Source: Pseudomonas profundi (GTDB taxonomy: Bacteria > Pseudomonadota > Gammaproteobacteria > Pseudomonadales > Pseudomonadaceae). Taken from it: a DNA stretch of 64,000 nucleotides. The stretch spans positions 62,001 through 126,000 of the forward strand of contig NZ_VTPZ01000003.1 in assembly GCF_008638305.1 (NCBI RefSeq), read 5' to 3'. The translations under genes were made by a program, and so were the position numbers. Positions 25,492 to 53,080 of the stretch are shown here, piece after piece (the stretch's first letter is position 1; each line of letters opens with the position of its first letter). The notes beneath the pieces were generated by a model. It was not told the DNA's origin. It saw only the letters and a program-made list of their open reading frames with translations, and made no database searches.

Positions 25492-25614
25492 GCAAGTCCT
25501 GTGCCAGTTCACACTTTTGGGTAAACTCATATAAAACAATAGCTTACGAAATACAAAAAGCGTTGCCACCATGCAGGGTGCATGATGTGGCGCTTCGATA
25601 TCGTGCAAAGTGCA
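25492..25614 (-). promoter_or_regulatory. Sigma-54 promoter with two upstream TGCA-N3-TGCA sites (copy A)
   Basis: On the minus strand TGGCACA-GGAC-TTGC runs from 25506 to 25492, with GG at 25505-25504 and GC at 25493-25492. The predicted transcription start is about 43 bp before the ATG. Upstream lie TGCAGGGTGCA (25572-25582) and TGCAAAGTGCA (25604-25614), 32 bp apart; the nearer site is 67 bp from the -24 GG. Between them and the promoter, AAACAATAGCTTA (25534-25546) is one mismatch from the IHF consensus. The layout matches the one at 52955-53080. Confidence 0.7.
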
Positions 25615-25739
25615 AAGTTCTGCGTCCTGGCGGGAACTTTACTTCAACCAGGTTGACGCGCCACGTACGGCAACGGAGTGGAGACAATAAATTGGACAAC
25701 CATCATTGGCTTCGGTGCCGTAGGGTGGCCTGCGAGCGA

Positions 25740-27362
25740 TCAAAGGGACAGCCGTCTGGTCAACTCGCTCAGTTGGTTAGACATTTCGTGCAGACCTGCA
25801 CTCGCCTGGGCGGTGCGCTCGACGTCACGCTGGTTGCTCGCGGCAATTTCGCTTATCTCGGTGATATTGCGAGAAATATCCTCTGACACGCTGGTCTGCT
25901 CCTCGGCTGCGGTGGCGATCTGGCGATTCATATCGCGGATCGCTTCGACCGAAAGTGTTATTTCACGCAGGCGCTCGCCCATCATATTCACCTGGCGCAT
26001 TCCGGTTTCACTGCTTGACTGCCCCCCTTCTATGGCACGCGCGGCATGCTCCGCGCCGTCACGGACGTTATCGATAATCTGTTGGATCTCGGCGGTTGAC
26101 GCACTGGTGCGCTGGGCCAGGGTGCGTACCTCATCTGCCACAACAGCGAACCCACGCCCGGCCTCACCGGCTCGAGCCGCTTCGATTGCCGCGTTCAGCG
26201 CCAACAGATTGGTTTGCGCAGCGATGCCCTGAATGACCTCAAGTACCTTGCCGATACGCTGGCTATCCCCTTCGAGCTGTCCAATGATTTCGGCAGTACG
26301 GGAAATCTCACCGAGCATCGACTGCATGGCCGAAACGGTCTGGCTCATATCTTGCTCGCCCTGGCGAGTGTGATCGTCGGCCAGGTCAGCTGCACTGGCG
26401 GCGTCTGCGGCATGCCGGGCCACTTCGGCGGCGGTCGCCGACATTTCCTGCATGGCAGCGGCGACCTGATCAGTACGGGAGAACTGCTCCCTTGCACCAT
26501 CAGTCATACGTGTCGCCACCGTGTTGAGTTCGCCGCTGGCGTGGTCAAGCTCGCTGGTACTCTGTTCAAGCTTGCGAAACGTATCGGCAAGGAAATCACG
26601 AAGCTGGTTCGCCGCCCGCGCCAGCGTACCCAGCTCATCGTTGCGATCGGTTTTGTTCGGCAAACCGATACGGCCACTGGCAAGCTGCTCTATCTGGCTG
26701 ATCAAGCCCGTAATGGGTGCGACCAGACGCTGGTTCACCAGCCAGACGCTGAGCATGCAGATCAGCACGGTCGAGCCCAGCAACAGGCCAACGCCAATCC
26801 AGATGGCACGACTTGCCTGCTCTCCGATAATCCGGCCCTGCTCGAGGGCGTAGGACTCAATGGTATCGACCAGTGACGCCATCTGATCGCTGGTCGCACG
26901 ATCGATACCTCGCACATTCCGATCGCCGGCCAGCGGATCGAAACCGCCAGTCCTGTAAGCCTGCAGGCCGACACGGTATGCGTCGCGGAGCCGCTGATGC
27001 TCCGTGCGCAACTGTTCGACCTGCTGGCGAGCCTGGGGCTGGATATCCAGAGCCGCAATTTCCGTCAGCAATGCTTGAACCTGCTGCTCTTCCTTTTCAA
27101 ACTGGGCCCAATAGCGCTCCATGTCCTGACCGTTGCCGCCGCGCAGCAATACGTTCTTCCACTCCTGTACCTGCCCCTTGAAGGCCAGGTTCGCATCGTT
27201 GACCAGGCTTGACGCCTGCAGCGGCCCCTCGATGAGCGAGCGATAGCTGCTCATACCCTTCGATAGCGTATTCAGACTGGTTAATGCCACCAGAACCATC
27301 AGCGTCAGGCTGCCAACCAGCAGCACCAGGGTCTGGGTACGAAGTGAAGAGGATGTAGCCAT
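25740..27362 (-). CDS. Methyl-accepting chemotaxis protein
   Basis: A 540-residue transducer. Transmembrane segment 1 is [19 protein letters not shown] (residues ~12-30). The periplasmic part of ~155 residues looks helical (4HB type). TM2 is [24 protein letters not shown] near residue 185, followed by a HAMP domain ([21 protein letters not shown]). The signalling tip [41 protein letters not shown] lies near residue 380. There is no C-terminal pentapeptide for CheR tethering. It senses an unknown ligand and passes the signal to CheA/CheW. The upstream region of the RWVF gene copy A lies just downstream of its 3' end. Confidence 0.93.
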
Positions 27363-27528
27363 GATCAGGGAATTCTATTTCGTGGAGTGAAGTGTGTGTT
27401 TCGGCCGCAAAGCCCCGAACTTGAGCGATCGAGACTGCGAAAAATAAAGATGTGTAAAGCTCACCGGCCAGCTTACGAGACGCCGGCGGCCACACTATAC
27501 TGGCCGCACAACCACTGGAGCCCTCGCA

Positions 27529-28623
27529 ATGACCCTTATGACGTTCGGATACCTGATCGCCGGTTTGATCCTGCTTGTTGCAGGTGCAGAAATCCTGGTC
27601 AAGGGGGCAGCCAAACTCGCTGCTCAGTTCGGCATCCCTCCGTTGATTGTGGGCCTTACCGTGGTTGCCTTTGGCACCAGCGCGCCGGAAACCGCCGTCA
27701 GTGTACAGGCGGCACTGGATGGCAGCGGTGATCTGGCAATCGGTAACGTGGTCGGCAGCAACATCGCCAACGTGCTGTTCATTCTCGGCGTGACAGCCCT
27801 GATCGCCCCGCTGATAGTGTCGCGCCAGCTGATCCGGCTGGATGTACCGATCATGATCGGCGCCAGCCTGCTGGCTCTGGCGCTGGCGTGGGATGGCGCG
27901 CTGAGCAAACTCGACGGGGCAATACTGTTCGTCTGCATCTTGGCTTACACCGCGTTCCTGATCATCAGTAGCCGCCGCGACAAGCAGGACGCAGCGGATG
28001 ATGAGTTCGACAAGGAATATGGACTGCACGAGACGCCAAAGCCCTACGCCTGGCTGATCAACCTGGCACTGGTTGTGGTCGGCCTGGTATTGCTGGTGTC
28101 GGGCTCCAATTTTCTGGTGACCGGTGCGGTCAGCCTGGCACGGGCTCTGGGTTTGTCAGAGCTGGTCATCGGCCTGACGGTGGTGGCGATCGGCACCTCC
28201 TTGCCTGAGCTCGCCACCTCCGTGCTGGCAGTCATTCGAGGCGAGCGGGACATCGCGGTGGGCAATATTGTCGGCAGCAATATCTTCAACCTGCTCTGCG
28301 TCCTCGGGCTGGCGGCTCTGGTGTCGCCTGAGCCGATACTGGTTGCGGCCAACGCCTTGATATTCGACTTCCCGGTGATGATTGCGGTCGCTGTGGCGTG
28401 CCTGCCGATCTTTTTCTCCGGCTACCGCATCAACCGCTGGGAAGGTCTGTTGTTTCTCGCGTACTACGCTGCCTATACCTTCTACCTGGTGGTTTTTTCA
28501 GCCGGGCGCCCGGTAGCCGAGGTGTTTGGTGACGCCATGCTCGGCTACGTATTGCCATTGACTGCTATCACGCTGATCGTCGTCGGCGGCCGTGCGTGGC
28601 AGCAGCAGAAAACTGCTCGCTAG
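27529..28623 (+). CDS. Calcium/sodium antiporter, CaxA/YrbG type
   Basis: A 364-residue cation exchanger of the CaCA superfamily with ~10-11 membrane helices. The two alpha repeats are visible: VVAFGTSAPETAVSVQAALDG with VGSNIANVLFILG in the first half, and VVAIGTSLPELATSVLAVIRG with VGSNIFNLLCVLG in the second. A hydrophilic acidic loop between them (RRDKQDAADDEFDKEYGLHE) marks the half-way point. It likely exports Ca2+ against Na+ or H+ across the inner membrane. The gene overlaps the convergent PhoD-like gene by 4 bp at its stop codon (shared CTAG). Confidence 0.92.
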   Translation: MTLMTFGYLIAGLILLVAGAEILVKGAAKLAAQFGIPPLIVGLTVVAFGTSAPETAVSVQAALDGSGDLAIGNVVGSNIANVLFILGVTALIAPLIVSRQLIRLDVPIMIGASLLALALAWDGALSKLDGAILFVCILAYTAFLIISSRRDKQDAADDEFDKEYGLHETPKPYAWLINLALVVVGLVLLVSGSNFLVTGAVSLARALGLSELVIGLTVVAIGTSLPELATSVLAVIRGERDIAVGNIVGSNIFNLLCVLGLAALVSPEPILVAANALIFDFPVMIAVAVACLPIFFSGYRINRWEGLLFLAYYAAYTFYLVVFSAGRPVAEVFGDAMLGYVLPLTAITLIVVGGRAWQQQKTAR

Positions 28624-30545
28624 GGCTGGCTGGCGGGGGGAAACAACACCTCGGGACCACGCGCATCAAGCTGGCGAATCTCTGCCGGGCGGCCCTGTGC
28701 GTCCAGCCTCACCAGGCCGACGCCCGTACCGTTCCAGAGGCGCTCGCCGGCCCTGGCGCCTTCGGGATCCCGGGGCGTAATGCGCATGCGGCGGCGTTTG
28801 GTCAGCCAGTTCAGCGGCGACCAGGGTGCATAGAGCCAGCGGTTGAGTCGATCCAGCCAGTCGAGCAGCGTATCCGGGAAGGCATTTTTCAATCCGCTGC
28901 TGGTGATCTGCCAGATACGCGGGCCCTGTCGGCGGTGACGGATACGGATGTCATACACGTAGGAATAGTGGACGTCCCCGGACAACACCACGTAGTTACC
29001 CGGGGTGCGTGAATGGCGAAAGATGTTCAGCATCACCTGCGCCGCGCCCCGATGCGCCATCCAGTTTTCCGCATCCACCAGTAGCGGTTTGCCGGCCAGG
29101 GTAAACAGCTTCTGGATGATCTCGATCAGCTTTACCCCGAACATCGGCGCCGGCGAGACCACTACCACGCTCGGTTTATCCAGCAAGGCTTGCTGCATTT
29201 CGGTCAATGCTTCCCAGTCCATCAGTCCGGAGGGCCGACCCGGGCTGCGCTCACTGCGCCAGCGCCGGGTCCGCGTATCCAGCACCAGTAGATGCGGCGT
29301 GCCTGGCACCTCGTATTCCCAGCCCTGGTATCTCAATAGCCAGTCAATGCAGGCGTCCTGCTCCTGCGAATCCAGCTGTCCTTCACTGCCAAGCTTGTTC
29401 AGGAATGTGTCGGCCCGGTCAATCGCATCGGCTACCTTGTCAGGCGCGTTACCCCATGCCTGACATAACAGATAAGCCAGCAGGGCGTTGCCGATGATGC
29501 GCTTTGACAGGGGATGACCATAGGCGGTGCTTTCCCACTCGGCGGAGAGGTTCCAGTCATCGGTCACATCGTGGTCATCGAAGATCATCAGCGAAGGCTG
29601 ATGCGCCAACAACCGGGCCACGCTGGGTAACCCGGCGGTGAATCGCTGCAGAATCTCACGTTCCTGCGCAAAGGTTTTCCGGTGCTCGGCAGATAACCGA
29701 GGCTCGACTACATCCACCAAATGCCACGGCTCGGGCGACCAGACCAGAAGATACATGGCCATGGTCTCGGCAAAGGTAATCAGATGATTATGTGCGTGCG
29801 CCGAGGTAAAGATCGGCTTTCTGGCTCCGCCGAAGAAGCGACGCCGCACCGCCGCGCTCGACGCCACGTCAGGCAGCAGTTCTTCGCGCTGATAATAGCC
29901 CTGCCCGGCGGCATAGAGCGCCTGACTGTCGGGCACCGTGGCGCCTTCAAGCGCTTCATCGAACAGTCCGAGACGCGAGATCAGTTGATGGATTGCCACC
30001 AGCATCGGACCGGCAACATCGTCGGCATACACCTGGTCACCGGTCATGATCAGCCAGGCGGGCCGCTGCTCTGGTTGGTCCAGCCGTTCTGCCAACCATG
30101 CATCGGCACGCACCAGTCCATCCAGGCCGTCAAAGTGTGGCTTGCGGCAGGAGCCGTGCAGGAGATTGCGATTGTGGGACGCAATAACGAACGCAGGCCG
30201 CTCACGCCCGGAATGGCAAAGGTAAGGCAGGGCCGTAGATAAACGCAGCGGCGCGCCGCCTGCCTCCCACAACAGGTCGTATTCAATGTCCGTATCGGCT
30301 GGCAATGGCGGCACCATCGCCACGTCCAGCATATGAATCCAGGCGTGGCGGCCGATCGGGATCCTGCGACACCTGTGTCCGTCGAGCGTGACAGATCGCT
30401 CCGCAGCCAATGCCGGTTGCAGGACCAATTCAAAATCGAGCGGCCGCGTGGCCACCAACCATATCAGCAGCCGCTCTGGAGCGAGCCGGCGCAATAGGGG
30501 GCCGGTGAGAAAGGTGGGCAAAGCGACGTTCGCAGGTTCGGGCAT
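28620..30545 (-). CDS. PhoD-like metallophosphatase family protein
   Basis: A 641-residue protein of the alkaline phosphatase D-like metallophosphatase group. Metal-binding motifs are MTGDQVYADDVAGP near residue 167, MIFDDHDVTDDWN near residue 322, and VVLSGDVHYSYVYDIR near residue 520. A beta-rich N-terminal domain of about 130 residues precedes them. There is no signal peptide, so unlike classical Tat-exported PhoD it should be cytoplasmic or peripheral. It hydrolyses phosphate esters or diesters, substrate unknown. No Pho box was seen upstream, so it may not belong to the phosphate-starvation response. Confidence 0.82.
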   Translation of the reverse strand: MPEPANVALPTFLTGPLLRRLAPERLLIWLVATRPLDFELVLQPALAAERSVTLDGHRCRRIPIGRHAWIHMLDVAMVPPLPADTDIEYDLLWEAGGAPLRLSTALPYLCHSGRERPAFVIASHNRNLLHGSCRKPHFDGLDGLVRADAWLAERLDQPEQRPAWLIMTGDQVYADDVAGPMLVAIHQLISRLGLFDEALEGATVPDSQALYAAGQGYYQREELLPDVASSAAVRRRFFGGARKPIFTSAHAHNHLITFAETMAMYLLVWSPEPWHLVDVVEPRLSAEHRKTFAQEREILQRFTAGLPSVARLLAHQPSLMIFDDHDVTDDWNLSAEWESTAYGHPLSKRIIGNALLAYLLCQAWGNAPDKVADAIDRADTFLNKLGSEGQLDSQEQDACIDWLLRYQGWEYEVPGTPHLLVLDTRTRRWRSERSPGRPSGLMDWEALTEMQQALLDKPSVVVVSPAPMFGVKLIEIIQKLFTLAGKPLLVDAENWMAHRGAAQVMLNIFRHSRTPGNYVVLSGDVHYSYVYDIRIRHRRQGPRIWQITSSGLKNAFPDTLLDWLDRLNRWLYAPWSPLNWLTKRRRMRITPRDPEGARAGERLWNGTGVGLVRLDAQGRPAEIRQLDARGPEVLFPPASQP

Positions 30546-30644
30546 GCAGCCTATGATTCAGCGCAGCCGAGGGAGTTCCGGACATGCCTGCCGACAAGGC
30601 GCGCTAGGCAGTTCAGGCAGGCAGCGCGCTGCCTGAACCGGACC

Positions 30645-30866
30645 TCAAGCTGGCTTGGCCGATTCGTCCACCGTGGCGGGATACCCGGCGTCCTTGAGGG
30701 CTGCAGTCAGCGCTAACGAGTCCGCGCTGCCTTCGACGGTCGCCCGCCCTGCGTCAAGATCCACTGCCACATCGTTCACGCCAGGCACCTCGTTCAGCGC
30801 TTTGGTGACATGTTTGACGCACGAACCACAGTTCATACCTTCGACTTGTAGAAAAACGGTGCTCAT
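30645..30866 (-). CDS. Heavy-metal-binding CopZ-type copper chaperone
   Basis: A 73-residue HMA domain, the full length of CopZ proteins. The metal site is EGMNCGSCVKHVTKAL near residue 10, with the two Cys of the CxxC motif. The rest follows the beta-alpha-beta-beta-alpha-beta pattern (VDLDAGRATVEGS..., LKDAGYPATV). It carries Cu(I) in the cytoplasm to an efflux ATPase such as CopA, which is not in the window. The start at 30866 gives the usual N-terminus (MSTVFLQVEGM); an upstream in-frame ATG at 30884 is less likely, because GAGGAGCAAGCT sits right before 30866. A CueR-type operator lies 49 bp upstream. Confidence 0.9.
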   Translation of the reverse strand: MSTVFLQVEGMNCGSCVKHVTKALNEVPGVNDVAVDLDAGRATVEGSADSLALTAALKDAGYPATVDESAKPA

Positions 30867-30914
30867 AGCTTGCTCCTCAATCACGCCGGCAATCGACAGG
30901 CTTCAATCCTCCTC

Positions 30915-30937
30915 CTTGACACCATGTCATGGTCAAG
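30915..30937 (-). promoter_or_regulatory. CueR/MerR-type operator upstream of copZ-like gene
   Basis: A 23-bp dyad with CTTGAC at 30915-30920 and GTCAAG at 30932-30937, and an inner ACCATG-T-CATGGT. This is the form of MerR-family copper operators (CueR), 49 bp before the copZ-like start. It suggests copper induction. No cueR gene is adjacent. Confidence 0.65.
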
Positions 30938-30959
30938 CCCCGCACGAAGCGACGACGCC

Positions 30960-31499
30960 CTAACCTCCCAGGGCAGACACAAGCGCCTTGTTGAACGCGT
31001 CCAGATCGTCGGGTTTGCGGCTACTGATCAGCTTGCCGTCTACAACCACTTCCTTATCGACCCAGTCGGCGCCAGCGTTGCGCAGATCGTCAGCCAGCGA
31101 TGGCCAGCTGGTCATGGTCTTGCCGCGTACCAGGTCGGTCGAAGCGAGAATCCAACCGCCGTGGCAGATCACCGCGATGACCTTGTCGGCGCCGGCTGCT
31201 CCGCTAACCAGAAGTTTGGCCGATTCTTCCAGGCGAATATTGTCGCCATTGACCACACCGCCGGGTAGCACGATGGCGTCATAGTCTTCAATCTTCGCCG
31301 CATCGAAGGTCTTGTCCACATCGAAGTCATCCGCGGGATCCGTGTGATTCCAGCCTTTCACCTTGCCGCTCGTGTTCGACAGAATCTCGGTTGTCGCGCC
31401 GGCGTCTTCCAGCGCTTGTTTGGGGCCAGTCAGCTCAACCTGCTCGAAGCCGTCGGTGACCAACAGGGCGACGCGTTTGCCGTTCAGGGAATTGCTCAT
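30960..31499 (-). CDS. DJ-1/PfpI family protein (type 1 glutamine amidotransferase fold)
   Basis: A 179-residue protein of the PfpI/YhbO group. The start NGKRVALLVTDGFEQVELTGPKQAL includes the Glu of the catalytic elbow, and VIAVICHGGWIL near residue 108 holds the nucleophile Cys next to His. The family includes proteases, deglycases and general-stress proteins of the cytoplasm; YhbO protects against oxidative and heat stress in E. coli. I infer a stress role here. It lies 93 bp upstream of the copZ-like gene in the same direction, but with the copper operator in between. Confidence 0.9.
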   Translation of the reverse strand: MSNSLNGKRVALLVTDGFEQVELTGPKQALEDAGATTEILSNTSGKVKGWNHTDPADDFDVDKTFDAAKIEDYDAIVLPGGVVNGDNIRLEESAKLLVSGAAGADKVIAVICHGGWILASTDLVRGKTMTSWPSLADDLRNAGADWVDKEVVVDGKLISSRKPDDLDAFNKALVSALGG

Positions 31500-31632
31500 T
31501 GCAGTCTCCAGTTATGAAACAGTGTTCCTGTTACGACAGGGACCACAATGAAAGTTCATGCCGCCCATCCCGCCGGGACCCACAGCGCTCATAGCGGGTC
31601 TTATTGGTTACAGGCAACCATTGGGGTGGCAT

Positions 31633-32292
31633 ATGCAATCATCCGGAATCGAAAACATCGCTGAACGGGACATACCGCCGGCGCCATGGCAGCTACAGGG
31701 TTCGGCCTGTGTTTCGCTGTGGCGGCTGCCAACCGAGGCGTTGCCGGACTCGGCGCCAGGCATTCGCTTTGTCGACGTGGCGGGCCACACGCTGGTCGCA
31801 ACCCTGTGGGCCCGTTACGCGCCTGGCGGTACGCTGAGCTACGACGAGCTGGCGGTTGCGGTAATGGCGCGCGGCGCGGGCCTGTTCAACCCGGCCTGCA
31901 GCATCATCAATATATGGGTCAGCGATCCGCTTGCAGCCGCAGGCGGCACACGCCTCTGGGCCATACCCAAGGAGTTAGCGAATTTCGCGGGCGAACTCTC
32001 TGCGCTCGGCCGGGGCGCGGCAGTGCGGGCTACAGACCAGCAAGGCAATACGCTCGCCTCGCTGCAGTTTGAATCGCGCTTTGATATTCCCGGTACGCTG
32101 CCGCTGCAGGGTTTTATCATTCAAAGCGGCGCAGGCGGACCGATCCGGACCCGATGCGCTGTCAAAGGCAAGGCACGTTCAGGCCGTGCACTGTGGGACT
32201 TTCCTGCATCCGGACCCCTGGCATTCCTGCATGGCCGAACCCCATTTGTCAGCCTGCGAATGGATTCGCTTCAGGGGCGTTTCGGGTTATAG
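31633..32292 (+). CDS. Acetoacetate decarboxylase-like protein
   Basis: A 219-residue protein with an ADC-like fold. The family N-terminus PPAPWQLQGSACVSLWRLP is clear, and RLWAIPKELANF in the middle carries a Lys equivalent in position to the Schiff-base Lys of acetoacetate decarboxylase (F/YPKK motif). Whether it decarboxylates is unknown; many ADC-like proteins act on other substrates. I take the ATG at 31633, which has TTGGGGTGG just upstream; an earlier in-frame ATG at 31558 would add 25 residues that do not resemble the family. Its 3' end overlaps the convergent oxidoreductase gene by 22 bp. Confidence 0.78.
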   Translation: MQSSGIENIAERDIPPAPWQLQGSACVSLWRLPTEALPDSAPGIRFVDVAGHTLVATLWARYAPGGTLSYDELAVAVMARGAGLFNPACSIINIWVSDPLAAAGGTRLWAIPKELANFAGELSALGRGAAVRATDQQGNTLASLQFESRFDIPGTLPLQGFIIQSGAGGPIRTRCAVKGKARSGRALWDFPASGPLAFLHGRTPFVSLRMDSLQGRFGL

Positions 32293-33722: not shown

Positions 33723-33782
33723 ACATCGACCGGTCAAAAATCCCAACGTCGTTCACAACCCGCCCCGTTTCTGCTGGTTTAC

Positions 33783-34346: not shown

Positions 34347-34395
34347 GCCAAAATCTCCGTTCGTTTGCGGTTGTTGTCATCTCGCGTTGCTTCGC

Positions 34396-34911: not shown

Positions 34912-35085
34912 GAATCCTCCGTTAAGCGTTAGGAACTCTAAGGGATATGACCTTCAAATTGAGAGCAGCTCTGGACAGGGGAGTTCACCCAGGGCGTAGA
35001 TAATGCCTACCTTCCATCGCGATCTAGGGTCTGGGAAGCAAACGGCGGCTTGAGCACACCGTCTGCCTGATACGCGTTGGTGGCG

Positions 35086-40745: not shown

Positions 40746-40844
40746 GCGCACGCATGCCGGGGATCACCGCTTTTATTCCCCGACATCGCGGCCATCCAAC
40801 CCAGCCGAGCACATGCCTGGTTGGCTATCGATAATCCATTGCGG

Positions 40845-41223: not shown

Positions 41224-41419
41224 CGCACCAATACCGGGAAGCGAGGCGTCGAACCGCACCCTTATGGTTCATCGTCTTGCACCATGGGAGGTCTACCGGG
41301 GGCGGTGCGCATCTTTCATATTTTTTTCTTCCCTGGCCAGAACCCGCGTCATTAACGGCTCGCGCAAAGCTCAACGGGATGACCGAAGGGTGCAGACCAT
41401 CCCTGGCACGCTCCTTGCT
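41224..41419 (+). promoter_or_regulatory. Sigma-54 promoter with NtrC-like sites upstream of nirB
   Basis: TGGCACG-CTCC-TTGCT at 41404-41419 is an exact sigma-54 consensus match, with GG at 41405-41406 and GC at 41417-41418. Upstream are three sites related to the NtrC consensus TGCACC-N5-GGTGCA: 41224-41240 (CGCACC...CGGGAA), 41255-41271 (CGCACC...GGTTCA, best) and 41278-41294 (TGCACC...AGGTCT). They lie 111-182 bp before the -24 element. The leader to the nirB ATG is about 165 bases long and contains a small ACGCC...GGCGT hairpin. NtrC/RpoN control by nitrogen limitation is the natural reading. Confidence 0.75.
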
Positions 41420-41594
41420 CAACCCTTAGTAAGCTTGCCAGGCCAACCAGCCGTCGCCCCCTCTCCTTTACATAACCACCCAGGGGTGATCACGCCGGTC
41501 CGCGCCGTGGCGTTAATAACGATATCCGGGACAGATCGAAGCCTGAACCGCTTTGAGACTCAGCGTTCCGGATTGCCTTGACTGAGGAAAGGCC

Positions 41595-44524: not shown

Positions 44525-44566
44525 TGCCTCCGCGACACCTCCTCTTACATATCTGAGTAAATTGTT

Positions 44567-45394: not shown

Positions 45395-45395
45395 A

Positions 45396-47165
45396 GTGGG
45401 AGTAACCCAGTCGTGTCTGCGGCTGGGCCGTGATCAGGCCCCCGGGCCTGGTCATTTGCGCATTGCCGTCGGCCAGTACTCCGACAAGGGCCGCAAGCAG
45501 ACCAATCAGGATTTTCACGGGCTGTGCATACCCTGCGAGCCGCTGCTCAGCTCCAAGGGCATCGCCATTGCGCTGGCAGACGGCATCAGCAGCAGCGATG
45601 TCAGCCATATTGCCAGCCAGTCAGCGGTCGCGAGTTTTCTCGAAGACTACTACTGCACCGCCGAAACCTGGTCAGTGAAAAAATCCGTGCAGCGCGTTCT
45701 GGCTGCCACCAACTCCTGGCTGTACGCCCAGACCCGGCAGAGCCAATACCGCTACGATCTCGACCGCGGATATGTGTGCACCTTCAGCGCCATGGTAGTG
45801 AAATCGCGCACGGCACACCTCTTCCACGTCGGCGATGCCCGCATTTACCGTGTACAGGGCAACGCGCTGGAACAGCTCACTGAAGATCACCGGATGCGGG
45901 TATCCGCGGACAAGAGTTACCTGAGCCGCGCTCTGGGCATTGATGCCTGGCTGGATATCGACTACCGCACCCTGCAAGTTGAAGTTGGCGACACCTTCAT
46001 GCTGCTCACCGATGGTGTGTACGAGCATGCCAGCAGTCGCTTCATGCTCGCTGCCATCGCGGCGAACCCCCTGGATCTGGACCTGGCCGCCCAGCGCATG
46101 GTTGAAGAAGCGCTTGAGCAAGGCAGCGACGACAATCTCACGGCGCAGATCATACGTATCGAAGAGTTGCCGGATCAGGCCGCCGATGAGTTGCATCAAC
46201 GACTGACCGAACTGCCGCCACCGCCCATCCTGCAGCCGGGGGAGGTGTTTGATGGCTACCGGATTATCCGTGAAGTGCATGCCAGCAGTCGCAGCCATGT
46301 ATATCTGGCCGAGGACGAACAGGAACCCGGGTTTATCGTTCTGAAAACCCCGTCTACTGATCTACGGGACGATTCAGCCTATCTGGAACGCTTTCTGACG
46401 GAAGAGTGGATTGCCCGCCGCATCCGCAGCAACCACGTACTCAAGCCCTGTCCGATCAATCGGCCGCGCAATTATCTGTATACCCTTACCGAATACATCG
46501 AAGGGCAGACGTTGGCCCAATGGATGCTCGACAACCCGACGCCGGATGTCGAAACCGTTCGCGGCATTGTCGAGCAGATCGCCAAAGGGCTGCAGGCCTT
46601 TCATCGAGCGGAGATGCTGCATCAGGATCTGCGCCCCGAAAACATCATGATCGACAGCAGCGGCACAGTGAAGATCATCGACTTTGGCTCCGCCAAGGTG
46701 GCCGGTCTGGCAGAGATCACCGCAGCGGTGCAACACAACGACATTCTCGGAACAGCCCAGTACACCGCTCCCGAATACTTCCTGGGCGAGAGCGGCACGC
46801 CGCTTTCAGATATGTTTTCGCTGGCCGTGATTACCTATCAGATGCTCACTGGCAAACTGCCCTATGGTGCGGAAGTGGCCAAGTGTCGTACGCGCGCCGC
46901 GCAGAACAAGCTGAAATACCAGTCAGTGCTGGACGACAACCGCGAGATTCCCGCCTGGCTCGACGAGGTACTGAGAAAAGCGCTGCAGCCTAGCCCCAAC
47001 AAGCGTTACACAGAGCTATCGGAGTTCGCCTTCGAGCTGCGCCGTCCCAGCCGCGAGCTGGCCAATCGCGCCCGCCCACCTTTGATCAAACGCAATCCTG
47101 TGCTGGTCTGGCAGTGGATTTCTGCCGTTTTACTCGTGGTCATTATTCTGCTGTTGATGCGCTGA
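45396..47165 (+). CDS. PP2C phosphatase-Ser/Thr kinase fusion in the nitrite operon
   Basis: A 589-residue bifunctional protein. Residues ~22-245 are a PP2C-type phosphatase: SDKGRKQTNQDFHG, LADGISSSDVSHIASQ, HVGDARIYRV, LLTDGVYEH and GSDDNLTAQIIRI supply the metal-binding Asp residues. Residues ~280-560 are a kinase: IVLKTPS (ATP Lys), the loop MLHQDLRPENIMI (HQD in place of HRD), and IIDFGSAKV (DFG). One C-terminal helix, VWQWISAVLLVVIILLLM, anchors it in the membrane. The start is a GTG at 45396. From memory, P. aeruginosa has a similar kinase gene next to its nirB/nirD/nasA genes. I infer a regulatory role on nitrate/nitrite uptake or assimilation. Confidence 0.9.
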   Translation: MGVTQSCLRLGRDQAPGPGHLRIAVGQYSDKGRKQTNQDFHGLCIPCEPLLSSKGIAIALADGISSSDVSHIASQSAVASFLEDYYCTAETWSVKKSVQRVLAATNSWLYAQTRQSQYRYDLDRGYVCTFSAMVVKSRTAHLFHVGDARIYRVQGNALEQLTEDHRMRVSADKSYLSRALGIDAWLDIDYRTLQVEVGDTFMLLTDGVYEHASSRFMLAAIAANPLDLDLAAQRMVEEALEQGSDDNLTAQIIRIEELPDQAADELHQRLTELPPPPILQPGEVFDGYRIIREVHASSRSHVYLAEDEQEPGFIVLKTPSTDLRDDSAYLERFLTEEWIARRIRSNHVLKPCPINRPRNYLYTLTEYIEGQTLAQWMLDNPTPDVETVRGIVEQIAKGLQAFHRAEMLHQDLRPENIMIDSSGTVKIIDFGSAKVAGLAEITAAVQHNDILGTAQYTAPEYFLGESGTPLSDMFSLAVITYQMLTGKLPYGAEVAKCRTRAAQNKLKYQSVLDDNREIPAWLDEVLRKALQPSPNKRYTELSEFAFELRRPSRELANRARPPLIKRNPVLVWQWISAVLLVVIILLLMR

Positions 47166-47274
47166 CCTGGCCGCTAATCAGGCTAAATGGCCAACTTCGT
47201 GGAACCTTTAGCCTTCACCCTGCGCCTATCCTCTACACTCGTGAATATTCAGAAGCATTGATCGGAGTAGACGG

Positions 47275-47811
47275 ATGAGATGGATCAAGCGGTTGGGCAC
47301 AGTCGTCATCGTGGCCCTTGTTATCAGCGCGGCGCTGGGCCTGCATTACATACTGCCAAAACATGACGTTGTGCATGTCACCGGCGTTGAGGTCAAACGG
47401 GTCGATGATGACGGCGTGGTCAATGCCGAGAATCCGGCTGAAGGGCCTACCCGCGACATGTACTTCATCAATACCGCGGATCCCGACAGCAACAAGGTGC
47501 GGGTGTACCGTAACGAAGATACCGGCTGGGGCTTCCCCTGGTATTTCAAGTTCGACTCCGCCGATGTGCAAGCCCGCGCTCAGGATTTTTCGCGGAACAG
47601 CAATCAGCTGGCGCTGATTCGCTATTACGGCTGGCGGCTACAGATGTTCTCGACATTTCCGAACATCACTGACATCGAGGCCACCACCACCCGGGACGAG
47701 CCCCTGCCTATATTCAATATACTGTTCTTCCTGGTGGTCGGTGGTGTGATTATGGCGGTTTTCCTGGCGACGCGTAGACGCTCGCAGCGACGTCTGGATA
47801 GGCCCATTTAA
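47275..47811 (+). CDS. DUF1523 family membrane protein
   Basis: A 178-residue protein with an N-terminal helix (RLGTVVIVALVISAALGLHYIL) and a C-terminal one (NILFFLVVGGVIMAVFLATRRRSQRR), so both ends lie in the cytoplasm with a ~110-residue periplasmic domain between. That domain carries HDVVHVTGVEVKRVDDDG, the DMYFINTADPDSNKVRVYRNEDTGWGFPWYFKFDS segment and ALIRYYGWRLQMFSTFPNI, the signature of DUF1523. The function is unknown. It stands alone and converges on the maa gene with a 5-bp gap. Confidence 0.85.
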   Translation: MRWIKRLGTVVIVALVISAALGLHYILPKHDVVHVTGVEVKRVDDDGVVNAENPAEGPTRDMYFINTADPDSNKVRVYRNEDTGWGFPWYFKFDSADVQARAQDFSRNSNQLALIRYYGWRLQMFSTFPNITDIEATTTRDEPLPIFNILFFLVVGGVIMAVFLATRRRSQRRLDRPI

Positions 47812-47816
47812 ACAGC

Positions 47817-48389
47817 TCAATCCGCAATGGCCTTGATCACCCGGCATGGATTGCCCGCGGCAAACACCTCAGCCGGTATGTCGCGGGTCACCACGCTGCC
47901 CGCGCCGATTACGGTACCGGCACCGACAGTTACGCCCGGACAGACAACAGCGCCGCCGCCAACCCAGACGTCATCGCCAATGGTGACTGGTTTGCCTGAC
48001 TCAAGTCCGGTGCGCCGCTGTGCTGCGCTCATCGGGTGAGTTGCGGCATACACCTGCACGCCCGGCCCAAACAGCACGTTCGAGCCAATAACGACGCGCG
48101 CCACATCCAGAATCACACAGTTGAAATTGAAGAAGACCCTGTCCCCGAGCGTGATGTTATCGCCGTAATCACATAAAAAGGGCGGCTCAATCGTCACATC
48201 GCTACCGCAGTCAGGCACCAGCTCACGGAGCAGCCGGTCACGCTCGGCCTGCTCGCTATCACTGGTATGGTTGAATGCTCTGGTGAGCAGCCGCGCCCGG
48301 TTCCGCGCGGCTACCAGCTCCGGCGACAGCGGATCATAGAGTTCGCCACGCAGCATCTTGTCTCGTTCTGGAACCGTGCTATTGCTCAA
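47817..48389 (-). CDS. Maltose/sugar O-acetyltransferase (Maa-like)
   Basis: A 190-residue hexapeptide-repeat acetyltransferase. The N-terminal helix pair MLRGELYDPLSPELVAARNRARLLTRAFNH is the Maa signature. The left-handed beta-helix runs through ITLGDRVFFNFNCVILDVARVVIGSNVLFGPGVQVYAATH (with the catalytic His), and GKPVTIGDDVWVGGGAVVCPGVTVGAGTVIGAGSVVTRD forms the last coils. It transfers acetyl from acetyl-CoA to sugars. I start it at the TTG at 48389, which overlaps the mepA stop (TTGAGCAATAG) with GAGG upstream; an ATG at 48356 is the alternative. Confidence 0.85.
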   Translation of the reverse strand: MSNSTVPERDKMLRGELYDPLSPELVAARNRARLLTRAFNHTSDSEQAERDRLLRELVPDCGSDVTIEPPFLCDYGDNITLGDRVFFNFNCVILDVARVVIGSNVLFGPGVQVYAATHPMSAAQRRTGLESGKPVTIGDDVWVGGGAVVCPGVTVGAGTVIGAGSVVTRDIPAEVFAAGNPCRVIKAIAD

Positions 48390-49215
48390 GTACGGCCTCA
48401 CAGGCTGCCGGTACAGTGCGGCGCGGACTGGATTCGCGCGCCAGTCGGGGGGTTGGCTGGATGTTATCGCAGCCTTCTCCTGGGGGCGGTGCAGGCTGAT
48501 CGACGCATTCCGGCGAACCCGCAGGGCAACGCAGACGGACATGCAGATGCTCGTCATGCGCGGGCCATGGCCGGATCCTGCGCAGCCAGCTCCGGTCTTC
48601 CCAGTTGCGCTCACACAGATCCCGCTTGACGGCGGCATCGACAAAGATGCGCGCCACACGGTCATCAAGCGCGGCAAGGTGAATCAGCTCGGCGTGCCTG
48701 TCGGTCCAGCGCTCAGGATCCATTCTGCCGGTCTCCGGATCGACCAGGATGGGCTGTTCCAGCTTCTCTCGGCGACCAGGTTCCAGCGCCGGCAAATCAA
48801 GCCGGAACCAGATATCCACATCCAGGCCGCTTTGATGACTGACATGCCCATAGGACATGGGACCACCTCGCGGCTGCGCCATATCGCCCACCAGTATCGG
48901 GCCGAAGCCTTCCTCATCCACCCGCTGGCCGAGCGCCTGAATGTAATCAACCAGCGAGGGGTGTCCATAATGGCGACGCCGCTCGAGATCGACCGCCTGA
49001 TAGCCCGTGCCTTGCTCGGGCAGCTGCTGCGCGCCGATCAGGCAGGCACCGCCGTGATGCCCGATGATACGGGGCTCACCCTCCACCGGCCCCACCACCG
49101 TCGACCAGTCCTGCTGGGCAGCGGCGTCGGTTGGCCAGGTGATTGTCAGAATGCCCACTGTCATCAGGCTGAGCACCAGCAAGGCAGTACGGATCGGATT
49201 GAAAAAACTGCGCAT
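48379..49215 (-). CDS. mepA: Penicillin-insensitive murein endopeptidase MepA
   Basis: A 278-residue periplasmic LAS-family metallopeptidase with a signal peptide (to about DAAA, residue ~33). Zinc and active-site motifs are IIGHHGGACLIGA, MSYGHVSHQSGLDVDIWF near residue 120, and WPAHDEHLHVRLRCP near residue 218. It cuts the D-Ala-meso-DAP cross-links of peptidoglycan. The Cys-rich C-terminal tail (CPAGSPECVDQPAPPPGEGC) is usual for the family. The start at 49215 gives a clean signal peptide; the open frame reaches further up. It lies 14 bp after the alpha/beta hydrolase gene and overlaps maa. Confidence 0.9.
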   Translation of the reverse strand: MRSFFNPIRTALLVLSLMTVGILTITWPTDAAAQQDWSTVVGPVEGEPRIIGHHGGACLIGAQQLPEQGTGYQAVDLERRRHYGHPSLVDYIQALGQRVDEEGFGPILVGDMAQPRGGPMSYGHVSHQSGLDVDIWFRLDLPALEPGRREKLEQPILVDPETGRMDPERWTDRHAELIHLAALDDRVARIFVDAAVKRDLCERNWEDRSWLRRIRPWPAHDEHLHVRLRCPAGSPECVDQPAPPPGEGCDNIQPTPRLARESSPRRTVPAACEAVLEQ

Positions 49216-49229
49216 GGAAGCTGGCCTTA

Positions 49230-50354
49230 TCACTTGTGCTGGCGCGCCAGCCAATCGAGACCCGGACGATAGAGCATGTCGTGCTCCCCCTCAAAGATCA
49301 CCAGTTCGGCCGGGCCCGACTGAAGATGTAACACCACGTTCGCGTTTGCTTCTTCGAACCGGGGATAGTCGCCGTCCTGATGAATCGAACGCTCGCTCAG
49401 CGCCTCGGGGATGCTGCGCTCGGCGTTCAGCTGTTCGATCAGGTCGGGTGCGATCCTGTCGTCCTCCTTGGCCAGATCGTTGAAGGCGCGCAATGCCTGC
49501 TCCGGCGGAACGGTCTCATCGCCCAGGCCATGCGCGATATGAACCGGGAATTCACCGCGTACGTCCTGTAATCGCGACCGCGGGCTGCGTTCCAGGCACT
49601 CGGCATAGGCATCGGTGCCTTGCTCCGGCGCGCCACCGCAGGCGCCGGCAATTTCGCCGGCGTATTTCGCACCCTGCGAGTCGTTCCACTGATACCAGGC
49701 AATCAGGTCATATACCGGCACCCATAACGACACCCCGGCAAACACGTCCGGATGACGGCTGGCCAGATGCATGGCATTCATAGCCCCGCCTGAATAACCC
49801 AGCAGGTAGATCCGCTGCGGATCGATATTGGCGTTCTCGCGCGCATAATCGAGGGCATCCTGCATGTCGGACATCACCAGGTCAGAGGCGGTGGACTCGG
49901 GCCGGCCGTCATTCTGACCGCGGAAGTCCGGATGCATGAACACCCAATCGTTGGCGACCGCAAATTGCGCGATGGGGATATCGATATTCTGCAGATAGTC
50001 TGTGCTCCAGCTATGCAGCACCAGCAGCAGCGGTTTCTCCTGATCCGAACCGGAGTCATAAAACAGCGCCTTCTGCGAAGCGCCGTCAGCCGAGGCGGGT
50101 ATCTCGATGTCTTTCACATCGGGGACCTGTTCGCGCCACCTGGAGAGATCCGCCGCGACCAGACCGCCCGGAAATTCCGTCACCCGCAGATGTTCGCTCG
50201 GATGCTCGACCTGAACCTGCGCCCCGCCATGGCCATCACCCTGCGAAGCCGTTGCCGGGCTGGAGTTTGAGTCACTACAGCCAGAAACAGTCAACAACCC
50301 AAAAATGAGCGCGATGGGTAAACCGAACCTGGTGATACGCCTGGACTGGATCAT
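49230..50354 (-). CDS. Lipoprotein alpha/beta hydrolase
   Basis: A 374-residue secreted esterase-like protein. The N-terminal lipobox LLTVSGCSDSNSS puts the lipid on Cys ~25. The alpha/beta hydrolase core shows LLLVLHSWSTDYLQNID near residue 125, the nucleophile elbow YLLGYSGGAMNAMHLAS near residue 190, and the His-side segment HIAHGLGDETVPPEQALRAF near residue 280. It probably hydrolyses an ester or peptide-like substrate at the outer membrane or in the periplasm; prolyl-oligopeptidase or PHB-depolymerase-like relatives exist. GGAGACACCCC precedes the ATG at 50354. It is the first gene of an operon with mepA and maa. Confidence 0.85.
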   Translation of the reverse strand: MIQSRRITRFGLPIALIFGLLTVSGCSDSNSSPATASQGDGHGGAQVQVEHPSEHLRVTEFPGGLVAADLSRWREQVPDVKDIEIPASADGASQKALFYDSGSDQEKPLLLVLHSWSTDYLQNIDIPIAQFAVANDWVFMHPDFRGQNDGRPESTASDLVMSDMQDALDYARENANIDPQRIYLLGYSGGAMNAMHLASRHPDVFAGVSLWVPVYDLIAWYQWNDSQGAKYAGEIAGACGGAPEQGTDAYAECLERSPRSRLQDVRGEFPVHIAHGLGDETVPPEQALRAFNDLAKEDDRIAPDLIEQLNAERSIPEALSERSIHQDGDYPRFEEANANVVLHLQSGPAELVIFEGEHDMLYRPGLDWLARQHK

Positions 50355-50576
50355 GGGGTGTCTCCGATCGTGGGCGCTCCTTGCCATGGCAGTACTCGGC
50401 CGCGCTGATTGACGGCTATATATTCTGCGACTCCGGGTCTGGATAAATGTTCTGCCGATCAGCTGGGAGTCTGCGACATCCGGATCGAATGGTCATGCCC
50501 CGAGAGTCCGCTCCTGGTTGCCGGCCATGGCTCATTCAGCCGGACCCCTGGCTTGCTGTGGCTCGAAGCGACTCAA

Positions 50577-51128
50577 TCAGGCGTGGATACAACAGATCGT
50601 CGCGCCCCGCGGCGCTGTCAGCTCGTCGACCTCATGGACCAGTCCGGTCGCTATCGCCTCGCTCGGATTGAGGATACGCGGTGCTGCGGTCAGATAACTG
50701 AGGGTATCCAGCGAGTCGCCGACATCCTCGGTCCGTTCGCGGACGATATCCGCATACATCTGAAGGTCGTAATCCAGGCTCATGGCATATTCCGACATGC
50801 GCGAATGATCGACCGAACCATGCAAGGTCCAGTGAAAAGGATGAAACAGGAACTTGCTGTGTTTACAGGCAGTGCGACGCTCGCCCGCGAGATAAATAAT
50901 GTTGCCCATGGATTCGACCGTCCCCAGATTATGGGTATGCACTGGAATGGGCAAAGACATCAAAAAGTTGTACAGCGAAAATCCGTAGCTGCACTCACCA
51001 CCCATTGTGGCAATTTTGACGATCAGCTCGGATGCTTCGCTATTGACCGCGTCCGAGCATTTCCTGATGAGCTGTCCGGTAGTCGATGAGTTGATCGGGC
51101 CGGTGAAATGAACGACATATGACGTCAT
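50577..51128 (-). CDS. ClpP-like serine protease (SppA/ClpP crotonase fold)
   Basis: A 183-residue ClpP-family protein. The catalytic Ser is in LGTVESMGNIIYLAG near residue 73, the His in KFLFHPFHWTLHG near residue 96, and the Asp probably in the LQMYADIVRERTEDVG helix, although the spacing differs from housekeeping ClpP. The oxyanion Gly-Gly is in KIATMGGECSYGF. It lacks the ClpX partner gene and differs from the main ClpP, so it may have a special substrate or be a non-degradative family member. The nearby genes are KGG stress proteins and a GGDEF protein. It is transcribed on its own. Confidence 0.8.
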   Translation of the reverse strand: MTSYVVHFTGPINSSTTGQLIRKCSDAVNSEASELIVKIATMGGECSYGFSLYNFLMSLPIPVHTHNLGTVESMGNIIYLAGERRTACKHSKFLFHPFHWTLHGSVDHSRMSEYAMSLDYDLQMYADIVRERTEDVGDSLDTLSYLTAAPRILNPSEAIATGLVHEVDELTAPRGATICCIHA

Positions 51129-51267
51129 GGCGATCCTCGGGTCTGGTGATCTCCATCGTGATGCTTGATTCAGGCTCGGTCTGCGACGGAAGTTATCCCT
51201 AGCCTAGTCCGCACCTGGGGCTGTTGCTTCGGTTGAGGCATAAAAATTAATACCTACATCCCCAACC

Positions 51268-51294
51268 AAAAAAAGCGGGAGCCTGTGCTCCCGC
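51268..51294 (-). terminator. Rho-independent terminator after the KGG protein gene
   Basis: On the minus strand GCGGGAGC-ACAG-GCTCCCGC is followed by TTTTTTT. It lies 9 bp past the stop of the 51304-51645 gene. Confidence 0.92.
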
Positions 51295-51303
51295 CCAGCT
51301 GCA

Positions 51304-51645
51304 TCAGCTATTGCGGCCGCCGCTATGGCTGTTCTGGCCGCCTTTGCGTCCGGCTTCGGATGCTTTTTCGCGGTCATTGGCGAAGTTGCCGCCACTGTTC
51401 TGACCGCCTTTGCTGCCCGCTTCCGACGCCCGTTCCGGGTCGTTGGCGAAGTTACCTCCGCTGTTCTGGCCGCCTTTGCTGCCAGCCTCAGAGGCGCGCT
51501 CAGGGTCGTTGGCAAAGTTGCCGCCGCTGTTCTGGCCGCCCTTGCTACCGATGTCCTGATAGAATTCCTTGTCGTGGGTTTGCGAGGTTTTCTGACCGCC
51601 CTTCTGACCGGCCTGGCTTGTGCTCATGTTGTCTTTACTGGACAT
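51304..51645 (-). CDS. KGG-repeat stress protein with three tandem repeats
   Basis: A 113-residue, very hydrophilic protein made of KGG repeats (YciG/con-10 type). Three near-identical ~23-residue units, GSKGGQNSGGNFANDPERASEA, run from about residue 33 to 100, after an N-terminal QAGQKGGQKTSQTHDKEF. The DNA repeats are also nearly identical and could slip. Such proteins are linked to general stress and desiccation, and are disordered in solution. GAGGAG lies before the ATG, and a strong terminator follows. A second, shorter copy lies at 52629-52799 on the other strand. Confidence 0.9.
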   Translation of the reverse strand: MSSKDNMSTSQAGQKGGQKTSQTHDKEFYQDIGSKGGQNSGGNFANDPERASEAGSKGGQNSGGNFANDPERASEAGSKGGQNSGGNFANDREKASEAGRKGGQNSHSGGRNS

Positions 51646-51848
51646 ACAACTCTCCTCTAGACAAGTGCAACATCACTTAAATATCAAAGGGATACGGTAC
51701 CGCCTCGGTTGTTTTCCGAGCGTTATACCGCCCTCACCAACTACGAAAGGAAGCCCTCTGGAAAGTTCACAACCATTCAGCAGACCAGGCGTTTTTAGGG
51801 CACACGCGCCCGGCTGAGCGTTTTCTGCCTGGTCCACGCGACGGCATT

Positions 51849-52475
51849 TCAGCCGTTGTGAAAGCGGTAACAGTTGCGACCGGAGTGTTTTGCCTGATAC
51901 ATCGCGCTATCGGCGCGCTGCAGCAGGTCCTCAGCGGATTGTGCATGTCGGTTCAGAATGGCCACGCCGAGGCTGGCGCCAATGCTGACCTCGACCCCGG
52001 ATTCGATTCTGATAGGTTCATTGACTCGCTGCAGGAATCGATCAAGAACCCGCTCGATATCTTCCCGCCGCGCCGTGCCCTCCAGAAGCACCACGAACTC
52101 GTCGCCGCCGAGCCGGGCGACATAATCTGACTGACGGCCCAGCTCGGTCAGCAGCGACGCAACGTGCTGCAGGACCTTATCCCCAACTGCGTGGCCGTAG
52201 GTATCGTTGGCCTGCTTGAACCTGTCGAGGTCGAGCATGACCAGACCACAACTATAGCCCGGATCGCTTTCGACGATCCGCATCGACTGATCGAGCCGCT
52301 TCATCAGGCCGCGACGGTTGCCGACACCGGTGAGCAGGTCGGTAACGGCCATGTGCTCAGCGGCGTGAGCGGCCAGCTGTCGCTCGGTTACATCGCGCTG
52401 CAGCCGCATGCTGCGCTCATCACCGATGGATCTGACCAGACGTTCGATCATGCCACTGCTTGTATCTACTCCCAT
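51849..52475 (-). CDS. Diguanylate cyclase (GGDEF)
   Basis: A 208-residue protein with one GGDEF domain. The active-site motif RLGGDEFVVLLEG is intact near residue 124, and RQSD five residues before it is an I-site for c-di-GMP inhibition. The metal-binding Asp is in VMLDLDRFKQANDTYGHAVGD near residue 82. The N-terminus is only ~45 residues of helix (ERSMRLQRDVTERQLAAHAAEH) with no sensor domain, which is unusual. It makes c-di-GMP from GTP. The start at 52475 has a poor ribosome site, so a later ATG (for example at residue 9) is possible. Confidence 0.87.
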   Translation of the reverse strand: MGVDTSSGMIERLVRSIGDERSMRLQRDVTERQLAAHAAEHMAVTDLLTGVGNRRGLMKRLDQSMRIVESDPGYSCGLVMLDLDRFKQANDTYGHAVGDKVLQHVASLLTELGRQSDYVARLGGDEFVVLLEGTARREDIERVLDRFLQRVNEPIRIESGVEVSIGASLGVAILNRHAQSAEDLLQRADSAMYQAKHSGRNCYRFHNG

Positions 52476-52628
52476 TCAGCTATTTCAAGAAGAATTTTAA
52501 CGACGAATTGGAATTAGCTTTGCTTTCAAAAACAGGAACTTCAAACAACGCGAGGGTCGAATTCTGCAAGAGCGATCGATATCCGGTCGTTCGTGTATGT
52601 CCCTGACACCAAGTGAGGAGATTGACAC

Positions 52629-52799
52629 ATGACTACCAATAAGAACCCAGGCAACTTTGCAAACGATCGAGAGAAAGCGTCGGAAGCAGGGAAAAAAGGC
52701 GGCCACAACAGCGGTGGCAACTTTGCAAACGATCGCGAAAAGGCTTCAGAAGCCGGCAAGAAAGGCGGCCAGAATAGCCATGGTGGCGGCCGTAGCTAA
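52629..52799 (+). CDS. Small KGG-repeat stress protein
   Basis: A 56-residue protein, too short for most ORF calls: MTTNKNPGNFANDREKASEA, GKKGGHNSGGNFANDREKAS, EAGKKGGQNSHGGGRS. It has two KGG units of the same family as the 113-residue protein at 51304-51645 on the other strand; the shared NFANDREKASEAG core shows a recent common origin. GAGGAG sits about 8 bases before the ATG, and a strong terminator lies 10 bp after the stop. It probably acts in stress protection or as a disordered osmotic or desiccation-type protein. I call it on the clear start, stop and terminator context. Confidence 0.88.
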   Translation: MTTNKNPGNFANDREKASEAGKKGGHNSGGNFANDREKASEAGKKGGQNSHGGGRS

Positions 52800-52809
52800 C
52801 ACAACCATA

Positions 52810-52834
52810 AACGGAGGCCACGGCCTCCGTTTTT
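52810..52834 (+). terminator. Rho-independent terminator after the small KGG gene
   Basis: ACGGAGGCC-AC-GGCCTCCGT followed by TTTT. A perfect 9-bp stem. Confidence 0.92.
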
Positions 52835-52954
52835 CCACGCTTCAACGCTAAGCCTTCCCGCCGCTCTCACCTCTCCAATGTCTGAATCTCAATTCTCGTC
52901 TTCATATAAATCGTCTCAAGTGTGCGACAGCTCACAGACGCGCTAGTCAAATCA

Positions 52955-53080
52955 TGCCAAATGCACGGCCATTCGCTGGCCATCGTGCAAAATGCAATAC
53001 TCCTAACACCTGGCGCTTCTTCTATCTTATTGATAAATAAGCACAAAATGACTTACCACTACTTGGTACGAGGCTTGCAA
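52955..53080 (+). promoter_or_regulatory. Sigma-54 promoter with two upstream TGCA-N3-TGCA sites (copy B)
   Basis: TTGGTACG-AGGC-TTGCAA at 53063-53080 matches the sigma-54 consensus with one change (GGT for GGC); GG is at 53065-53066 and GC at 53077-53078. Upstream are TGCCAAATGCA (52955-52965) and TGCAAAATGCA (52986-52996), 31 bp apart; the second is 69 bp from the -24 GG. An IHF-like site lies at 53023-53035 (one mismatch). The predicted start point is ~40 bp before the ATG. The architecture equals that at 25492-25614. Confidence 0.7.

Follow-up and report, generated by a model that had tools for sequence, protein, structure and literature searches.

AlgW, a periplasmic protease of Pseudomonas aeruginosa, responds to the C-terminal tail of MucE: the decapeptide SVRDELRWVF activates it, as does WVF alone to a lesser degree, and crystal structures of the complexes have been reported (PMC8545111). 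The two-component system AlgB-KinB has been tied to the same protease: loss of KinB acts via AlgW-dependent MucA proteolysis, according to the title of a 2009 study by Damron cited in PMC3684759, KinB and RpoN affect AlgW expression (PMC3684759), and AlgB 'activates AlgW' according to a 2026 review, with no ligand named in the part of the review available to us (PMC13001231). What is available of the mucE literature finds orthologues only in P. aeruginosa (PMC3819740), does not list mucE for P. putida (PMC12112638), in whose strain KT2440 algB is PP_0133 and kinB is PP_0132, and reports for Azotobacter vinelandii that mucE is absent and that an algW mutant makes no alginate (PMC6979010). Here we describe two small genes, A and B, in a 64,000-nucleotide stretch of Pseudomonas profundi DNA (assembly GCF_008638305.1, contig NZ_VTPZ01000003.1, positions 62,001 to 126,000 of the forward strand; hereafter the window). 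Their promoters share a module made of two dyads of the TGCA-N3-TGCA type, a site resembling that of integration host factor (IHF) and a sigma-54 -24/-12 element. We put at about three in four the probability that AlgB, together with sigma-54, makes MucE-like triggers of AlgW through this module, which would be a candidate link from KinB-AlgB to the envelope-stress sigma factor AlgU.

A promoter module with a fixed layout

Copy A of the module lies on the minus strand (25614-25492) and copy B on the plus strand (52955-53078). A preliminary description of the window had placed two dyads, a -24/-12 element and an IHF-like site with one mismatch in each copy, and all of these were located in the sequence. 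In copy A, the distal dyad (TGCACTTTGCA, 25604-25614, proposed AlgB dimer site 1) and the proximal dyad (TGCACCCTGCA, 25572-25582, proposed AlgB dimer site 2) are both TGCA-N3-TGCA, and are followed on the same strand by the IHF-like site (AAACAATAGCTTA, 25534-25546), one mismatch away from the IHF consensus WATCARNNNNTTR, and by the sigma-54 element (TGGCACAGGACTTGC, 25492-25506). In copy B, the distal dyad (TGCCAAATGCA, 52955-52965) is the single TGCC-AAA-TGCA variant that had been noticed among the four, the proximal dyad (TGCAAAATGCA, 52986-52996) is TGCA-AAA-TGCA, and the IHF-like site (TATCAATAAGATA, 53023-53035), also with one mismatch, has the consensus on the complementary strand and precedes the sigma-54 element (TGGTACGAGGCTTGC, 53064-53078). 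The gap between the dyads is 21 nucleotides (nt) in copy A and 20 nt in copy B, the nearer dyad is 65 and 67 nt, respectively, from the TGG of the promoter, the IHF-like site stands 25-26 nt past the nearer dyad in both, and both -24/-12 elements carry the invariant GG-N10-GC. An additional consensus -24/-12 element at window positions 41404-41418 has no dyads, and the dyads are thus not common to all sigma-54 sites in the window. It lies about 180 base pairs (bp) before a nitrite-reductase gene, which is followed by genes for a formate/nitrite transporter and a protein kinase with a phosphatase domain.

The whole 4.21-Mb genome was scanned for the dyad pair at fixed gaps of 20 and 21 nt. Summed over both gaps, 3 places match perfectly, copy B alone has a single mismatch, 4 places have two mismatches and 50 have three. 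Scaled from the 50, the chance expectation is about 3.6 places with two mismatches, 0.16 with one and 0.003 with none, and the two modules of the window are far from chance. Of the places with two or three mismatches, 26 were examined (4 of 4 and 22 of 50, respectively), and none shows a consensus sigma-54 site in the range of 61-69 nt; there is a weak site at 70 nt in one and a one-mismatch site at 56 nt in another. The genome scan suggested in the preliminary description has thereby been run, and the paired module (gap of 20-21 nt, at most one mismatch) stands at four promoters, A, B, C and D, three before genes for small, predicted exported proteins and one before a gene for an exported BON protein. 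The genomic outcome that the preliminary description had named as refuting it, a chance rate with no tie to small exported genes, did not occur. Module C (C45:24437-24478) lies between the gene for an NtrC-type response regulator, with a sensor kinase gene behind it, and a divergent small gene, toward which the sigma-54 element is directed and whose product ends in PRWVF. Module D (C23:185426-185468) is upstream of the gene for an exported protein with three BON domains, which is related to OsmY yet scores below the cut-off of the OsmY model.

A strict module with a sigma-54 site was found in 149 of 298 Pseudomonadaceae genomes. For this search, a wide gap of 17-25 nt was narrowed to 19-23 nt, a range that leaves out perfect 7-nt periodicity, because TGCAAGC heptamer repeats swamped the wider search in several genomes of the genus. 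Such TGCAAGC/GCTTGCA repeats, at one or several places per genome (L028 in G001, L029 in G002, L036 in G010, and also in G008 and G009), imitate the dyad pattern if gaps of 17 or 24 nt are permitted. Among 74 modules (30 loci returned by the strict search, 40 chosen from its list, and the four of P. profundi), the dyad gap is 20 nt in 63 and 21 nt in 11, with 19-23 nt permitted. The distance from the nearer dyad to the TGG, for which 45-75 nt were permitted, is 63-67 nt in 70 modules, 53-56 nt in three, or about one helical turn shorter, and 71 nt in one.

The -24/-12 element formed part of the strict pattern in the 298-genome and 74-module searches, and not of the choice of 60 loci that were selected for AlgB rather than for the module. 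These are 63 loci (L187-L249) minus L244, L245 and L247 (49-58% identity), with L250-L266 (39-45%) also excluded; they include six metagenome-assembled genomes and records of P. fluorescens, P. putida, P. chlororaphis, P. viridiflava, Stutzerimonas stutzeri and others. Dyad pairs with at most two mismatches have a gap of 20 nt in 42 of these loci and 21 nt in 7, with lesser counts at 13 (19 loci), 27 (12) and 14 nt (4) and single cases at 10, 15, 22, 29 and 33 nt. A sigma-54 site at 61-69 nt accompanies 41 of the 42 pairs at gap 20 and 7 of 7 at gap 21, compared with 5, 5 and 1 at gaps 13, 27 and 14; the peaks at 13 and 27 (20 minus and plus 7) are taken for repeated half-sites. With 0-200 nt permitted, the sigma-54 site falls 64-67 nt away in 48 of 49 counts. 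When TGCA is replaced by CATG, GTAC or ACGT, the same 60 loci yield zero pairs. Of 94 distinct modules, 87 have the IHF consensus, with at most one mismatch, in its fixed position, against 0.8% with shuffled spacers.

These counts bear on whether the shared module could be a product of chance or descent, a recent duplication without function. Genes A and B do have the same tail and are on the same contig, with 27 kb between them. However, the spacers of the two copies are unlike, while the dyads, the IHF site, the -24/-12 element and the distances between them are conserved; the loci chosen by AlgB show the same gap and the same distance; and both the shuffled-spacer IHF comparison and the tetramer replacements contradict chance and descent, an explanation to which we give hardly any weight. 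A paired-dimer enhancer, an IHF bend and a sigma-54 polymerase would require just such a rigid layout. The earlier proposal of a shared sigma-54 module served by a paired-dimer enhancer-binding protein gains support from the recurrence of the module across the family, its fixed spacing and its fixed IHF site.

AlgB as the candidate activator

The regulator encoded beside module C has the NtrC-type layout of receiver, AAA and helix-turn-helix domains, a GAFTGA motif and an adjoining kinase gene. The NCBIfam hits listed for it include no AlgB model, so the name AlgB is in part provisional. The kinase of a homologous locus (L168), with which the P. profundi kinase shares 54% identity, matches PDB entry 3kkb ('Sensor protein') at an E value of 5e-64, an entry that we take to be the KinB sensor domain. 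AlgB (a match at E ≤1e-150) is present in 250 of the 298 genomes, and 148 of these carry the strict module, compared with 1 of the 48 AlgB-less genomes, of which 28 were assigned by elimination, among the matches listed. The sole AlgB-less genome with a strict module is 73% complete, and genomes that have neither AlgB nor the module are found within genera that otherwise have both (g1, g8, g10, g14, g16 and g17). AlgB (76-99% identity) is divergent to the module in 23 of 40 fetched module loci, representing 11 genera. In 23 of the 30 AlgB loci closest to that of P. profundi, a sigma-54-like site stands 65-67 nt from a dyad pair (at most three mismatches), and the module is present in 56 of the 60 AlgB-ortholog loci of named records, with no mismatch in 18, one in 2, two in 28 and three in 8. 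The place beside algB, the co-presence with AlgB and the geometry of the module together make AlgB, the NtrC-type response regulator of AlgB-KinB, the most likely activator, and we consider this assignment, drawn from genome comparisons, highly probable. In one locus (L171), the AlgB frame of genome G137 has an in-frame TAG close to the C-terminus.

A different NtrC-type activator might instead bind the dyads, with the copy beside algB simply allowing that regulator to control a neighboring gene. In the P. profundi genome, 12 encoded proteins strongly match the sigma-54 activator part, and dyads containing TGCA are not unique to AlgB, given that the NtrC site is TGCACC-N5-GGTGCA. Yet NtrC, to our knowledge near-universal in Pseudomonadaceae, would not yield the 1 of 48 found among AlgB-less genomes; the module tracks the presence and loss of AlgB across genera; and one copy is divergent to algB in most of the AlgB loci examined. 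PrsR, the PEP-CTERM/exosortase regulator (TIGR02915), was rejected as a candidate, since no protein attains its cut-off (best score 392.9 bits against 502.6). We regard an activator other than AlgB as improbable.

The preliminary description had known of no activator for TGCA-N3-TGCA and had seen none in the window. A family search of the window likewise gave no complete NtrC-type activator, only a receiver-domain match. As for the dyad itself, the literature examined contains no AlgB motif; a candidate activator, AlgB, is encoded beside the third copy of the module. A study by HT-SELEX (high-throughput systematic evolution of ligands by exponential enrichment) includes AlgB (PMC8041468).

RWVF tails and a proposed route to AlgW

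Gene A (25159-25437, minus strand, with an alternative in-frame start possible at 25443) encodes a protein of 92 residues and gene B (53130-53375, plus strand) one of 81 residues. Each protein has a hydrophobic N-terminal stretch and ends in QRWVF, consistent with the earlier view of two small exported proteins with identical last residues, and each is proposed to be a MucE-like trigger of AlgW. For A, B and the algB-divergent protein C, export is predicted solely from the hydrophobic N-terminal stretch. All three end in RWVF, and none matched a Pfam or NCBIfam family. Across the six frames of the P. profundi genome there are six WVF-stop sites, of which three end A, B and C, two do not belong to open reading frames (ORFs), and one ends L093 (137 codons, TTG start, CWVF), which was excluded by its length alone. 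Gene B is followed after 76 bp by a family-2 glycosyltransferase gene on the same strand (53452-54501), possibly in one operon with it.

The tails recur in other genomes. A search of 32 genomes from 13 genera for [RS]WVF-stop, limited to R and S, gave 62 sites, of which 34 end small exported proteins and 28 do not; 23 of the 34 have a module within 450 nt, 20 are in an algB-divergent operon, and 29 have either or both. A WVF-ended small exported ORF is present in the algB-divergent 3 kb of 49 of the 60 AlgB loci, compared with 0 of 60 on the control strands (the opposite strand, and the algB strand downstream). The 40 fetched loci contain 41 modules, of which 15 have a WVF- or WIF-type end within 2.5 kb on the same strand and none has one on the opposite strand. 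In an alignment of 11 WVF proteins, one of them MucE-like, the only invariant positions are the W, V and F, a dissimilarity outside the tail that fits selection acting on the tail; no homology to MucE beyond the tail was found in these 11 sequences.

Other genes were seen near the same loci. In two genomes, a small exported RWVF gene with its own module lies just beyond kinB (L174, G174:C37, RWVF at 7703; L175, G287:C1, RWVF at 1117621), the modules having 0 and 1 mismatch, respectively. G174 also has a TWVF-ended gene divergent to algB, and its algB-kinB pair is thus flanked on both sides. Variant tails occur behind modules in small exported proteins ending in ERLVF (L075) and PRWIF (L133). 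In algB-divergent regions, DUF1328- and DUF2383-type genes recur near WVF genes or first in line (for example in L169, L170, L174, L175, L178, L180 and L186).

AlgW and MucA are both encoded in the P. profundi genome: the first scores below the NCBIfam DegS cut-off and has AlgW chains as its best solved matches, and the second matches RseA_N above cut-off. We propose that each of the two TGCA-N3-TGCA dyads, which are spaced by about three helical turns, is occupied by an AlgB dimer, that IHF bends the DNA between the dyads and the promoter, and that AlgB opens sigma-54 RNA polymerase at the -24/-12 element. The products would be those of genes A, B and C, which are small, RWVF-ended and otherwise dissimilar, together with the OsmY-like BON-domain protein. 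Activation of AlgB would put WVF-ended PDZ ligands for AlgW into the periplasm, where the tails may open AlgW, which would cut MucA and free AlgU. In this way, a two-component system could start regulated proteolysis by making its own trigger, and since AlgU activates algB, as reported in the available part of a review (PMC13001231), a positive loop would be closed.

The module could be an AlgB-sigma-54 enhancer as proposed, with the WVF tails serving another PDZ-like or sorting partner, or with the proteins having a BON-like role in the envelope. BON, DUF1328 and DUF2383 proteins, for which a link to AlgW is not known, make up many of the targets, and the regulon may serve envelope or osmotic stress in general. 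Against this, the last four residues (RWVF) are those of the published AlgW ligand, the WVF proteins differ from one another outside the tail as expected if the tail is selected, and the genome has both AlgW and MucA. We consider such a role unlikely, if somewhat less so than an activator other than AlgB.

Several points weigh against the proposal that AlgB and sigma-54 make triggers of AlgW. In the loci examined, modules directly before BON proteins outnumber those before WVF proteins, so trigger production would be one output among several, and DUF1328 or DUF2383 genes also stand behind modules. What counts as 'small exported' is our own rule (a start, a ribosome site, a hydrophobic stretch and, in the 32-genome count, 50-130 residues), which L093, a further WVF frame of P. 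profundi, fails only on length. Five of the 34 WVF proteins have neither a module nor an algB-divergent operon (L278, L329, L333, L357 and L352). One of these, L352 of genome G148, is a MucE-like protein with the tail SVRDETRWVF, and its lack of a module accords with the reported dependence of mucE on AlgU (PMC3819740). At algB, G148 has a degraded module and no WVF gene in the algB-divergent stretch, and this best-studied lineage would need another route to AlgW. In P. aeruginosa, the algW promoter is reported to have activity that depends on RpoN (PMC3684759); at the algW locus of P. profundi, a simple scan of the algW strand found no consensus -24/-12 element. In A. vinelandii, KinB is absent and alginate production does not depend on algB (PMC6979010).

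The counts have their own limits. The association of module and AlgB (Fisher p = 5e-15) ignores shared descent, and 102 of the 250 AlgB genomes have no strict module, in part because it is degenerate there. A dyad pair also lies close to the end of a contig in G004, a 92% complete genome with no AlgB match at E 1e-150. We picked the 40 fetched loci and the 32 genomes ourselves, and the 60 AlgB loci are mostly of one species group. The reversed pattern, found in 0 of 298 genomes, in 0 of 856 start regions of selected loci (against 119 of 856 for the module) and, at three mismatches in the P. profundi genome, at 2 and 1 places (against 29 and 29), is a weak control and too easy, because TGCA is commoner than its reverse. 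All of the evidence is comparison of sequences.

We lean, by a small margin, toward a broader version of the proposal, in which AlgB and sigma-54 make dedicated AlgW triggers across much of Pseudomonadaceae, deliberately starting MucA proteolysis (in response to light and KinB inputs in P. aeruginosa) rather than awaiting misfolded outer-membrane proteins. The algB-divergent WVF genes would then be ancestral, and the lineage of the model species would have lost that gene and come to use the AlgU-driven MucE, which may be why the arrangement was overlooked. If AlgB does make AlgW triggers, the module supplies both a DNA site for AlgB and a ligand joining KinB-AlgB to the AlgU envelope-stress response. 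One signaling system could then switch on another, and an open question becomes testable with named genes.

Comparison with known systems

MucE, AlgW, AlgB and KinB are already known; what appears to be new is a MucE-like trigger under a two-component sigma-54 switch, and an enhancer module that we did not find described. The sigma-54 enhancers of NtrC-type activators have paired dimer sites and IHF. The module resembles them in its two dyads about three turns apart, its IHF site and its -24/-12 element, and is unlike them in its TGCA-N3-TGCA dyad and its near-invariant geometry (gap of 20-21 nt; 63-67 nt to the promoter). In the parts of the literature available, no AlgB link to a TGCA dyad or a WVF-ended gene was found, in searches that did not use the motif as a term and excluded supplements, and an earlier description is possible.

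The AlgB-KinB system is recognizable here by its NtrC-type regulator with GAFTGA and its paired algB-kinB genes. The available portions of the AlgB-KinB literature differ in giving no DNA motif for AlgB and no ligand gene under its control (PMC13001231, PMC3684759). In MucE, a small envelope protein, the C-terminal RWVF is what activates AlgW (PMC8545111), and A and B, small proteins predicted to be exported, have the same tail. Unlike A and B, mucE is AlgU-dependent, and RpoN supplied in trans failed to raise activity of its promoter (PMC3819740), whereas A and B have the AlgB-type sigma-54 module and WVF proteins span many Pseudomonadaceae genera; except for the tail, A and B are also unlike the MucE-like protein of G148. 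The proposed route further resembles that of DegS, RseA and sigma-E in Escherichia coli, where a PDZ-bound C-terminal peptide (YxF) wakes the protease and the anti-sigma factor is cut (PMC8545111). The ligands of DegS are mislocalized outer-membrane proteins, whereas those proposed here would be dedicated small proteins made from a promoter under a two-component system.

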